DNA of 64,000 bases from Chloracidobacterium thermophilum B (lineage in GTDB: Bacteria > Acidobacteriota > Blastocatellia > Chloracidobacteriales > Chloracidobacteriaceae), in the NCBI RefSeq assembly GCF_000226295.1, contig NC_016025.1, positions 558,001-622,000 of the forward strand, written 5' to 3'. The position numbers and the translations under genes were made by a program. The notes under the pieces are model-generated. The model saw only the letters and a program-made list of their open reading frames with translations, did no database searches and was not told the DNA's origin. Shown piece after piece: positions 17,752 through 21,312 of this stretch; within the stretch, counting starts at the first letter, position 1, and each line of letters opens with the position of its first letter.

Positions 17752-18750
17752 CTAGGCCAAACGGGCTTCCGAGCCGGCAAAGGCCACAAGACAGCCTTGA
17801 AGGTCTGGCGGTAGCGGCGACACAAAACGCATCGGCTGCGCCGATACGGGATGCACAAATGCCAGATGCGCCGCGTGGAGAAACTGCCTTCCCAACCGCT
17901 CGACGGCCTGACGCTGGGACGGATGGCGCAGTTGCCGGTCACACCCTAAACCGTAGAGCGGATCGCCCACGACCGGATGCCGGATGTGGGCGCAGTGAAC
18001 CCGAATCTGGTGTGTCCGCCCGGTCTCAATCCGTACCTCAAGCAGTGTCACCGGCCCAAACCGCTGCCGAACCACGTAGTGGGAACGCGCCGGACGTCCG
18101 CCCGGGTCCACTGTCATCTTCAGGCGGTGTTTGCGGTCACGGGCAATGGGGGCGTCAATTGTGCCGGTCCCGACGACATCGCCGTGAACCAGCGCCAGGT
18201 AGCCCTTTTCAACCGTGCGGGCGCGAAACTGCCCGGCGAGGTGTTCCAACGCCGCGTCAGTTTTGGCGACGACCATCAGACCCGAAGTATCCCGGTCGAG
18301 CCGGTGTACAATTCCCGGACGCAACGGCTCAGCCCCCGGCCGCTGGTGGCCGAAGTGAAACGCCAGCGCATTGGCCAGTGTCCCGTGCATCACGCCTGCC
18401 GCCGGATGGACGACCTGCCCGGCGGGTTTTTCCAGCACCAGGATCGCTTCATCTTCAAATCGAATCGTGAGCGGCAAGTCTTCCGGTACAAGGTCCGTTG
18501 TCACCGGCGCTGGAACATCCGCCTCAATTTCATCGCCCGGCCCCACGCGGTAACTTGCGCGCCGCACCTGTCCGTTGACCCGTACTTCGCCGTCGGCAAT
18601 GGCTCGCTGGATGCGCGCCCGGCTGACGGCCAGAACCTCGGCCAGAAACACATCGAGCCGGAGACCGGCAGATGCCTCCGGCACCCGACACAGCACTGTC
18701 TCGGCTGCCGACAGGTCCAAGGCGCTGACAGTGGAAGGGTCTGCATCCAT
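17752..18750 (-). CDS. rluD: 23S rRNA pseudouridine synthase, RluD type
   Basis: 332 residues from the ATG at 18750, which overlaps the upstream stop (TAATG). The S4 RNA-binding domain covers residues ~20-80 (RLDVFLAEVLAVSRARIQRA, GEVRVNGQVRRAS). The catalytic domain carries GIVHRLDRDTSGLMVVAKT with the catalytic aspartate, then GRTHQIRVH and HAAHLAFVHP. RluD isomerises uridines in helix 69 of 23S rRNA; RluC and RluA relatives cannot be fully excluded. It is the last gene of a minus-strand run (21098 to 17752). Confidence 0.9.
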   Translation of the reverse strand: MDADPSTVSALDLSAAETVLCRVPEASAGLRLDVFLAEVLAVSRARIQRAIADGEVRVNGQVRRASYRVGPGDEIEADVPAPVTTDLVPEDLPLTIRFEDEAILVLEKPAGQVVHPAAGVMHGTLANALAFHFGHQRPGAEPLRPGIVHRLDRDTSGLMVVAKTDAALEHLAGQFRARTVEKGYLALVHGDVVGTGTIDAPIARDRKHRLKMTVDPGGRPARSHYVVRQRFGPVTLLEVRIETGRTHQIRVHCAHIRHPVVGDPLYGLGCDRQLRHPSQRQAVERLGRQFLHAAHLAFVHPVSAQPMRFVSPLPPDLQGCLVAFAGSEARLA

Positions 18751-20000
18751 TACGGGAAGCTCAAACCCGGAAGGAGTTTGGCGATCTCCTGAAATGTTTT
18801 CTGAAGCCAATCGCCGAATTGTTCGGTGGGCAAATCCTCGGCGTAGGAAACATGATAGACCACACCATTTGGCGTTGGTTTGCACTCTCCACCCAGAAGC
18901 TTGGTACGTTCTTCGCGTAGCCGGGGCGATTCGCCAATCTCGTAAAGGTCAACCGATGTCATCAGATCATAGACCGGCTTGCGCTGCAAAATGATAACCA
19001 GCGGAAAGGTGCGCTGTGACACCAGATACCGAAAGGTAAGGTCATAACGGTGCATGAGCAACTCTTCCTGATTGCTGTGCCCCTCGGTGATGTGCACGCG
19101 CCTTGGGTCCAGCCCATGGACAAACTGCTGCATGACTTTTTTGCGCTCATTGAACAGCTTGAAATACTGCACGGCAGTACGCCGCTTGAGGGTTGGAGAA
19201 GGGGGCGTCACCAACGACGGAACAGCCGAAGGCGTCAGACTCCGCCCAACCGGTGACGCCGTTCCGCCCGGCGGCGGCTCCGCTGCCTGGGGCGGAGGTG
19301 GCAGGCGGGTGCTGCTTTTCTCCAGGTCCAGAATGAACCCGACATCGTCACCGGCGGCTGCCGCCGGGGGTGGCACCGAGGCAGGTGACTTTGCCGGTTC
19401 CATCTCCATCAGTCCCAGAAAGTGTGTTGCGGAAGGGTCCACGAGCACTGTGTGTGTAGCCTCCACCTTGATCGTCCCAGAGAGGGATTCCACCTCTGTA
19501 CGGGACGTGGCCGGAGGCGATACACCAGCCTGGGACGGCCGGATAGCCTCCACTTCGGCCGGAGCAACAACGACCGTTGGAGGAATGAAGGTATCCGTCA
19601 CGGAAGGGTTCGGCGCAGCTTCCACTTGCTCAGGCGGAGCGGCTGCTGGCGACACAATGACGGTCGGAGGAATAACCGTGTCAGGTTCCGGCGGCGGCTT
19701 CTGACGCTGCGATTTGAGTGTTGGCGGATCGTCTATCTGGACGGCCGCTTCCGACCACGCCGCGATTTCAGGCGCACCGGCTGGCGCTGAGGCGGACAGC
19801 CTGCCCGATGAAGGGGACTCCGCAACGGGAAACTGTGGCGTAAAAAGCTGCACCCGTTCCTGTTCGCTCATCCGGGCGGTCACTTCCGCATCTGCGGGCA
19901 CAGCCACCGGCTCTGGAAGGGGTACCAGCGGCAACCCGTGATAGGGACAAAACCGCTTGCCGTCATCCCAGGGGTTTTCACACTTTGGACAGGCTTTCAT
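18750..20000 (-). CDS. Zinc-ribbon protein with long Pro-rich linker, unknown function
   Basis: 416 residues from the ATG at 20000, preferred to upstream codons because the conserved part starts there (MKACPKCENPW, then FCPYHG: a four-ligand zinc ribbon). Residues ~45-265 are Pro/Val/Ala-rich with repeated 'PPTVIV' and 'PPTVVV' segments, likely disordered. Residues ~270-416 form a basic helical/beta domain (LKRRTAVQYFKLFNERKKV, DLTFRYLVSQRTFPLVIILQ) of no family I know. Zinc ribbon plus disordered linker is common in signalling adaptors; the function here is not readable. Confidence 0.65.
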   Translation of the reverse strand: MKACPKCENPWDDGKRFCPYHGLPLVPLPEPVAVPADAEVTARMSEQERVQLFTPQFPVAESPSSGRLSASAPAGAPEIAAWSEAAVQIDDPPTLKSQRQKPPPEPDTVIPPTVIVSPAAAPPEQVEAAPNPSVTDTFIPPTVVVAPAEVEAIRPSQAGVSPPATSRTEVESLSGTIKVEATHTVLVDPSATHFLGLMEMEPAKSPASVPPPAAAAGDDVGFILDLEKSSTRLPPPPQAAEPPPGGTASPVGRSLTPSAVPSLVTPPSPTLKRRTAVQYFKLFNERKKVMQQFVHGLDPRRVHITEGHSNQEELLMHRYDLTFRYLVSQRTFPLVIILQRKPVYDLMTSVDLYEIGESPRLREERTKLLGGECKPTPNGVVYHVSYAEDLPTEQFGDWLQKTFQEIAKLLPGLSFP

Positions 20001-20072
20001 GAGGGTATCCACTCTCTTGCCGGTGCCGGCCGTCCAGCATAGACGCGGCCGGCACCAGGCGAGACTAAGCAC

Positions 20073-20597
20073 TCAACGAGTGGGTATCTGTCCCAGAGTT
20101 ACATCCAGCGGCGGGTGATTCGGTACGAGATCACAGAGATAACGTTCAACGACCCGGCCATCGCCGTCAATCAGAAATTGCGCTGGGAGTGGCACACCCA
20201 AAGCGGCTCCCGTGCCATAGCCCTTGAAGACCACCCACTCCGGGTCACTGAGCAACGGGTAGGGCAACGCCAAATCCCCGGCGATGAGCTTGGACGTTGG
20301 CACATCCGTTGTGGTCACAACCACCACTTCGGCTCCCCGTTCCTGAAAAGCTGGGTATTGTTCGCGCAACTCGACCAGTCGCGGATAGCAGAACGGTCAG
20401 ATGAATCCCCGGTCCACGATGCGGGTCAGGTAGAGCAGACACCACCGGGGCGCCACCGCCGACAGCGTAAAGGGCTGCCCGTGAATATCGGGCAATGTAA
20501 AGTCAGGCGCCAGTTGCCCCAGTTCCACAACCGACCGGCTCGGATAGGGAATGAAGTTTCCCTTGAAAGGCAGCTCCAGCAGCTTGGCAAGGTTCAC
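20073..20597 (-). CDS. Peroxiredoxin-like (AhpC/TSA) protein with TGA at the active-site position; candidate selenoprotein
   Basis: Thioredoxin-fold peroxiredoxin-like protein, 174 residues if the TGA at 20397-20399 is read as an amino acid. The GTG start at 20597 follows a GAGGGGGAC ribosome binding site. Residues ~25-45 (LAPDFTLPDIHGQPFTL) are the family's first strand and turn. The reading frame then runs DRGFI-TGA-PFCYPRLVELR, where related proteins have CPFC or CPYC. The TGA therefore replaces exactly the N-terminal cysteine of the CxxC motif, leaving UPFC. Reading resumes in the same frame to the natural C-terminus. A possible stem-loop lies just downstream (closing GTTC...GAAC, inner CGAC/GTCG around a CTGG loop). 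A nonsense mutation or base error cannot be excluded. Confidence 0.6.
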
Positions 20598-20621
20598 AGC
20601 CTGTCCCCCTCGTCAATGTCC

Positions 20622-21098
20622 TTATTCGTCACTGCCACCTTCGGGATGGAAGCCACGGGTTTTCCGGCTCTTGTAGGCTTCGCCGTACAACTTCAGCCGC
20701 GTCCGCAGGCTTGCCAAACGCTCACTGTAGTTCGGATAGCGCCGGATGAGTTTTTCGAGGTTGACCATGTACCACGGTCCGAACATCTCGCGCAGTTCCG
20801 GCAAGAACGGCTCCAGTTTGGTAAACACGGCAAAACATTCCGTGTTGGTGTCAAAAAACAAGGCTTCGTCCAGCGTTCCGTGGTTGACCAGCGCGGCGGC
20901 CATGTCCCAGTACGTCGTCACCTGCCGCCAGTAAGCGCCATACACCGGGTTGCGCTTGTCAAACAGCAGGTCTTTGATGTCTTGGGCCGATTCCGGGAAA
21001 AACTTGAAAGCCACGAAATCCCGCGCCTCGCGCATTACCGGGTCACGGCGCAGTTCGTAGAGTTTCAGAATCAGTTGCGCGTCTTCATGGGTCGCCAT
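20622..21098 (-). CDS. Hypothetical protein, helical
   Basis: 158 residues from the ATG at 21098, the Met that begins the compact helical part (MATHEDAQLILKLYELRRDP). It contains AKQ-free amphipathic helices, VTTYWDMAAALVNHGTL and an aromatic patch (MFGPWYMVNLEKLIRRYP). No signal peptide, membrane segment or catalytic motif is seen. It lies 24 bp upstream of the peroxiredoxin-like gene on the same strand and is probably co-transcribed, which may hint at a redox context. Family not recognised. Confidence 0.65.
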   Translation of the reverse strand: MATHEDAQLILKLYELRRDPVMREARDFVAFKFFPESAQDIKDLLFDKRNPVYGAYWRQVTTYWDMAAALVNHGTLDEALFFDTNTECFAVFTKLEPFLPELREMFGPWYMVNLEKLIRRYPNYSERLASLRTRLKLYGEAYKSRKTRGFHPEGGSDE

Positions 21099-21312
21099 GC
21101 CACAGCCTCGTGGTTGATAGGAAGAAATGTCTGTCGCCGGCACTGTATCACAGCCAGTGCGAAACGGTGGGCGCGAAAGTGCGGCGTCCGGCCCGGTGCG
21201 CTGGCCCCCAACGCCCTGTCAGCCCCGGAAGCACTGCCAAACTTCTGTAGCTTTCATTCAGAACAAGCTTTACACTTTGGCGGTTGTACCTTGTGCCAGC
21301 CCCACCTGCCTG

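Follow-up and report, generated by a model that had tools for sequence, protein, structure and literature searches.

A conserved in-frame UGA in a peroxiredoxin-like gene of Chloracidobacterium most likely encodes selenocysteine

Results

A peroxiredoxin-like reading frame contains one in-frame TGA

Chloracidobacterium thermophilum is a hot-spring photosynthetic bacterium belonging to a genus of chlorophototrophic Acidobacteriota. The genome of strain B comprises 3,695,372 bases on two contigs, from which we analyzed a stretch of 64,000 nucleotides (the window; positions 558,001 to 622,000 of contig NC_016025.1, numbered here from 1). A preliminary description of this DNA had reported a minus-strand gene in which a TGA was the only interruption and in which homology continued on both sides, and both statements held. 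The frame running from 20597 to 20073 has a single internal stop, the TGA at 20397–20399, and is otherwise open. When the TGA is read as a residue, the product is a protein of 174 amino acids (...DRGFI-U-PFCYPRLVEL..., motif IUPFC) that is terminated by its own TGA. The read-through protein matched the Pfam family AhpC-TSA over residues 27–151 (E value 1.6e-22, 80.2 bits against a cut-off of 26) and also Redoxin PF08534 (E value 1.1e-13, 51.7 bits against a cut-off of 26.6), each match spanning the TGA. The features of the locus are as follows.

18750..20072, minus strand: downstream neighbor, no Pfam family, N-terminus zinc-ribbon-like by eye; same neighbor in the other six genomes of the genus (context only)
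20073..20597, minus strand: very probable selenoprotein gene; GTG start, TGA stop, 174 amino acids with Sec at codon 67, AhpC/TSA (peroxiredoxin) fold
20365..20383, minus strand: putative hairpin of the bacterial SECIS type, CGCGACU-GGUCG-AGUUGCG; stem of 7 bp, loop of 5 nt, 20 nt downstream of the UGA, −8.6 kcal/mol
20367..20384, minus strand: codons 72–77, invariant at 18/18 nucleotides in seven genomes; synonymous constraint over the putative SECIS
20388..20390, minus strand: TGC codon for Cys70, the probable partner of Sec67; Cys in 22/22 alignment rows (rows picked for the U/CxxC motif)
20397..20399, minus strand: in-frame TGA, most likely Sec67, opening the UxxC motif U67-P-F-C70; TGA in 7/7 genomes of the genus and 11 relatives, Cys in 4 relatives
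20622..21143, minus strand: upstream neighbor, DUF4760 protein; same neighbor in the other six genomes of the genus (context only)

Among the 17 places in the C. thermophilum B genome that matched AhpC-TSA at an E value of 0.001, this gene was the only one with an internal stop. The bare pattern of a TGA within an otherwise open frame is common, and, with this one counted, the window holds 53 TGA codons that are preceded by at least 60 and followed by at least 90 open codons; the case for the gene therefore rests on homology and conservation.

The TGA is shared by seven genomes of the genus

At the family level, 10 genomes were searched, and 7 of these belong to the genus (C. thermophilum B included). 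Codon 67 was TGA in all seven, and in each the gene measured 525 nt, with exactly one TGA inside it and no frameshift; the six other proteins are 82 to 99% identical to the window protein. Both a sequencing error and a recent mutation are therefore excluded, and the TGA is ancestral in the genus. Both before and after the TGA, dN/dS did not exceed 0.162 in the pairs where it was defined (dS was saturated in 3 of the 21 upstream pairs), which points to purifying selection on either side. A scan of genome contigs returned five loci, three with the same TGA, from genomes already counted, and two of PrxQ type without a TGA. The remaining three genomes of the family yielded only distant redoxins (best match at most 32% identical), and one locus from the family but outside the genus (L047 in G009) carries a TGA at the same motif.

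The genus proteins share further features. An N-terminal segment, K-x-LELPFKGNFIPYPSRS (20532–20585, minus strand; residues 5–22), is unchanged in the seven genomes except at residue 6, and despite this conservation the predicted model has a pLDDT below 50 for residues 4–14. The segment is absent from the 11 TGA-bearing relatives in the alignment described below, in which the Cys rows end short of that region. All seven proteins have Cys53 and Cys155, which are replaced by other residues in the aligned relatives that cover these positions; Cys155 may serve as an additional redox partner.

The genome encodes the selenocysteine machinery

Lack of the selenocysteine machinery would have spoken against the candidate selenoprotein that the preliminary description proposed; all components sought were present in C. 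thermophilum B. We found selA (502 bits against a cut-off of 268), selB (358 against 242), and selD (384 against 125), together with a tRNA-Sec (62 bits against an Rfam gathering score of 47) to which ARAGORN assigned the anticodon tca. The second Rfam tRNA-Sec hit above the gathering score was a tRNA-Leu according to ARAGORN. Judged by its gene content, the genome can make selenocysteine. Elsewhere in the genus, selA was found in 6/6 other genomes and selB in both of those checked (G001 and G006). Read in frame, SelD of C. thermophilum B (L018) is the Cys form (...RAGCAAKQ...) and is not itself a selenoprotein. A search of this genome for the formate dehydrogenase alpha subunit (TIGR01553) gave three matches, none above the cut-off and none with an internal stop.

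TGA and cysteine codons alternate in relatives

Our search of 396 Acidobacteriota genomes found 84 with a match at an E value of 1e-12 or better. The motif was read in loci L066–L092 (the short L081 left out) and in L046 and L047, and the numbers that follow are counts and not rates. W-U-P-[FYW]-C with a TGA at the U was present in 11 relatives from outside the genus (L047 and ten of L066–L092), and W-C-P-[FYW]-C in four (L046, L068, L076, and L090); the other loci read among L066–L092 have TPGC, TPVC, or SPVC at the motif. Two stops lying upstream of the domain, in L083 (TGA) and L088 (TAG), were left out of these counts. The resulting alignment has 22 rows, in which the 15 relatives from outside the genus were chosen for the U/CxxC motif. 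Pairing of TGA with Cys at this column, together with the TGA in 7/7 genomes of the genus and the machinery, thus upholds the selenoprotein candidacy first raised from the window.

Scoring three candidates per genome, we detected selB in 254 of the 396 genomes. Among the 11 genomes with the TGA motif, selA was found in 10 and selB in 9. G322 (93% complete, 310 contigs) gave no hit to selA or selB, and G282 (97%, 40 contigs) gave none to selB; incomplete assemblies, missed hits, and loss of the pathway are possible readings of these absences. The loci concerned, L075 in G322 and L074 in G282, have a TGA in UxxC followed by a SECIS-type hairpin despite the absent hits. Among the four genomes with Cys at the motif, G273 lacks both selA and selB, and G008, G122, and G399 have both.

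A constrained SECIS-type hairpin follows the TGA

According to the legend of Fig. 2 in PMC13188914, a bacterial SECIS has a loop of 3 to 9 nt with a G in the first two places and a stem of 4 to 16 bp, lies 16 to 37 nt from the UGA, and has a minimum free energy of at most −7.5 kcal/mol. We applied these rules with a custom script that considers uninterrupted stems only, so that the energies given here are those of the apical hairpin alone. The hairpin at 20365–20383 fell within every one of the published limits. The preliminary description had also placed a possible stem-loop just downstream of the TGA, but its stem was wrong. The inner helix proposed there (CGAC/GTCG) would enclose a loop of 2 nt, and the outer helix (GTTC...GAAC) is paired in 21 of the 24 cells and broken in 3, with no compensatory change, across the seven genus sequences (six distinct). 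The loop of the hairpin identified here, GGUCG, resembles the GGUC loop of the Escherichia coli fdhF SECIS.

Across the seven genomes, 118 degenerate codons are invariant in amino acid. The nucleotides vary in 102 of these and are unchanged in 16, 6 of which are consecutive and correspond to codons 72–77. This block, five codons past the TGA, is the longest run of unchanged codons in the gene. Together with the two bases that follow, it contains the hairpin. Only 51 of 200,000 shuffles reached a run of six, in a comparison that ignores kinship (two of the genomes are 99% identical in protein). Four-fold degenerate codons were unchanged in 2/2 cases within the block versus 0/44 elsewhere, and six-fold degenerate codons in 3/3 versus 3/28.

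On its own, the hairpin is slight evidence, because the 58-nt region past the TGA does not exceed its shuffles in stability (z score of −0.52), 5 to 8% of synonymous recodings yield a hairpin of equal or greater stability, and 7 of the window's 52 other TGAs with an ORF-like setting pass this rule as well. Its weight lies in the frozen nucleotides and in its counterparts in relatives. Nine of the 11 TGA-bearing relatives from outside the genus passed all SECIS criteria, and the other two, L079 (−6.4 kcal/mol) and L084 (−5.8 kcal/mol), have the stem and loop and miss the energy limit. None of the four Cys relatives passed: two lack a hairpin of this kind, L076 reaches −1.7 kcal/mol, and the 7-bp hairpin of L090, at −5.4 kcal/mol, comes near that of L084. 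When 12 sequences (6 from the genus and 6 others) were compared in the same register, a 6-bp core was paired in 72/72 cells. One core pair is altered on both sides in six sequences (A-U/G-C), a difference that divides the sequences into two groups and may be a single event; two of the five measures computed (changed pairs and pair types) were no higher than in shuffles. When a covariance model of the element was used to score 150 of 6,128 first-look candidates in the C. thermophilum B genome, the locus itself scored 1.7e-11 and the next candidate 0.52, so that no second convincing SECIS element was found among those scored. An Rfam scan of positions 20000–20700 gave no match at E values up to 1.

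Fold and active site of the predicted product

The structure predicted with Cys at position 67 (pLDDT of 86.1, pTM of 0.83) has a peroxiredoxin fold. The 50 matches listed by a fold search had Z scores of 19.8 to 22.7 and were nearly all titled peroxiredoxins or relatives; closest among the matches listed were Bcp4 (Z score of 22.7; 1.8 Å over 148 residues) and AhpE (Z score of 21.8; 1.9 Å over 148). In the model, residue 67 lies in the loop preceding helix 70–86, which Cys70 starts. Profile alignments with 2cx3 and 2ywn set position 67 against Ser or Thr (TxxC) and Cys70 against a conserved Cys, which we take to be the peroxidatic cysteine of these proteins. Sec67 would therefore stand at the place of the first Cys of the thioredoxin CxxC, and Cys70 at the place of its second Cys or of the peroxidatic Cys of peroxiredoxins. 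The preliminary proposal that the TGA replaces the active-site cysteine thus stands for the first Cys of a thioredoxin-type CxxC and fails for the peroxidatic Cys of classical peroxiredoxins. By eye, no signal peptide was evident in the genus proteins, unlike in some relatives, and no membrane anchor was seen in the Chloracidobacterium protein; the product is most likely cytosolic. We think it reasonably probable that its enzymatic class is that of a thiol:disulfide oxidoreductase or a thiol-dependent peroxidase.

The protein resembles known UxxC redoxins

Table 1 of PMC13188914, like PMC9312934, contains a Prx-like thiol:disulfide oxidoreductase of PF00578 with UxxC or UxxU (listed as predicted; representative WP_010940744), and the same table includes a UxxC "Redoxin family protein" of PF08534. 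A Sargasso Sea set described in PMC1088965 also contained Prx-like proteins with UXXC in place of TXXU. The existence of bacterial Prx-like UxxC selenoproteins, stated in the preliminary description, is thus confirmed by these sources as a known kind within PF00578. The window protein is like the Prx-like oxidoreductases in Pfam family, in having a probable Sec in UxxC at a thioredoxin-like active site, and in the putative SECIS just downstream; it scores above the AhpC-TSA cut-off and has UxxC in its active site. It is 27 to 39% identical to the 15 aligned UxxC/CxxC relatives; it also differs in having IUPFC instead of W-U-P-x-C and in its conserved N-terminal segment. The likeness to WP_010940744 and to the PF08534 representative is one of description only. 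With the PF08534 selenoprotein the window protein shares UxxC and a score above the family cut-off, but its score for AhpC-TSA is the higher (80.2 bits).

Other redoxin groups fit less well. Sec-containing peroxiredoxin, which has Sec in TxxU according to the table in PMC13188914, shares the AhpC/TSA fold, but in the window protein the Sec would lie three residues earlier with a Cys after it, and the score for PrxU (NF040737) was 30.2 bits against a cut-off of 270. Proteins of the ResA/TlpA type resemble it in having CxxC where the active-site helix begins, and ResA was the best NCBIfam hit, at 43 bits against a cut-off of 170. The SelL-related model NF040769, which describes redoxin relatives, was matched at an E value of 0.001 by 22/22 alignment members, but the window protein scored 34.9 bits against its cut-off of 120. 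No NCBIfam model reached its own cut-off for the window protein, and automatic annotation may therefore miss the gene.

Discussion

The apparent broken gene is almost certainly intact, with a stop codon that most likely inserts selenocysteine where the peroxiredoxin-like redox protein has its active site. The conserved TGA, the machinery, the Sec/Cys pairs, the constrained hairpin, and the fold, all of them computed, are the reasons for this reading. We hold with high confidence that selenocysteine would be inserted at the UGA at 20397–20399, and only a shade less firmly that the reading as a whole is correct. The UGA would be decoded by tRNA-Sec delivered by SelB, with SelB bound to the hairpin in the coding sequence 20 nt downstream. 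The predicted product, 174 amino acids with a peroxiredoxin/thioredoxin fold, would carry the active site Sec67-Pro-Phe-Cys70 at the start of a helix. The selenolate of Sec67 would attack a disulfide or a peroxide, Cys70 would resolve the intermediate by forming a selenenylsulfide, and the enzyme would presumably be reset by a reductant of the thioredoxin type.

Two alternatives deny the insertion of selenocysteine. The locus might be a pseudogene, or a nonsense mutation might have split the gene and left a downstream part that persists by chance or as a small ORF, and a list of ORFs of at least 80 amino acids does yield nothing there but a 98-residue ORF from a TTG at 20369, which is without the active site. 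This is very hard to reconcile with an identical TGA in seven genomes whose dS often exceeds 1, with low dN/dS on both sides of the codon in a gene that is 525 nt long and free of frameshifts in each genome, and with a complete Sec machinery, and we regard it as highly improbable. Programmed readthrough might instead place a standard amino acid (Trp, Cys, or Arg) at the UGA, and sequence alone does not decide the inserted residue; yet the position is paired with Cys in four relatives, the genome has the Sec genes, and a constrained SECIS-type hairpin follows the TGA, so that such readthrough seems just as improbable.

A further alternative shares the coding answer and differs in chemistry: the selenoprotein could act as a classical peroxiredoxin, with a peroxidatic Cys70 and a resolving Sec67. 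The 2cx3 and 2ywn profile alignments, in which 67 faces Ser or Thr and Cys70 the conserved Cys, the closeness of Bcp and AhpE among the fold matches listed, and AhpC-TSA as the best Pfam match all point that way. Against it stand the motif, which is a thioredoxin-type CxxC (in alignment rows chosen for it), and the order of the NCBIfam scores, ResA at 43 bits ahead of PrxQ at 33 and PrxU at 30, each below its own cut-off. We consider this arrangement unlikely, although it is the main rival, and favor a selenolate nucleophile at position 67 that is resolved by Cys70.

UxxC proteins of PF00578 are already a known kind, of which the divergent Chloracidobacterium lineage is a further member. Earlier surveys touch the phylum: the count for Acidobacteria given in PMC1794560 (2006) is four selenoproteins in three families, and the deep-Sep results in PMC12013277 include three known selenoprotein genes in one Acidobacteriota genome. 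Within the searchable part of the open-licence literature, no report of a Chloracidobacterium selenoprotein was found, and the genus occurred together with "selenoprotein" or "selenocysteine" only in papers with ergothioneine in the title; two papers on genomes of the genus (PMC8245765 and PMC12816986) have no word starting with "selen" in their main texts. An apparent pseudogene thus becomes a probable working redox enzyme, and selenium would gain a specific function in this chlorophototrophic genus of Acidobacteriota. As a tentative suggestion, to which we give limited credence, the genus-specific UxxC redoxin branch, with its IUPFC motif, invariant N-terminal segment, Cys53, and Cys155, may be a main reason that a chlorophyll-based phototroph keeps the Sec pathway, in a phylum where UxxC redoxins would be widespread and under-annotated.

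Other Acidobacteriota also have UxxC redoxins with an in-frame TGA (11 were read), and some of these proteins are longer. L072 (positions 970–2157) and the similar L074, L075, L082, and L091 have the motif SADW-U-P-[WY]-C and about 270 residues past the TGA; beyond the redoxin domain, L072 matches DsbD_N over residues 261–379 (E value of 3.4e-7).
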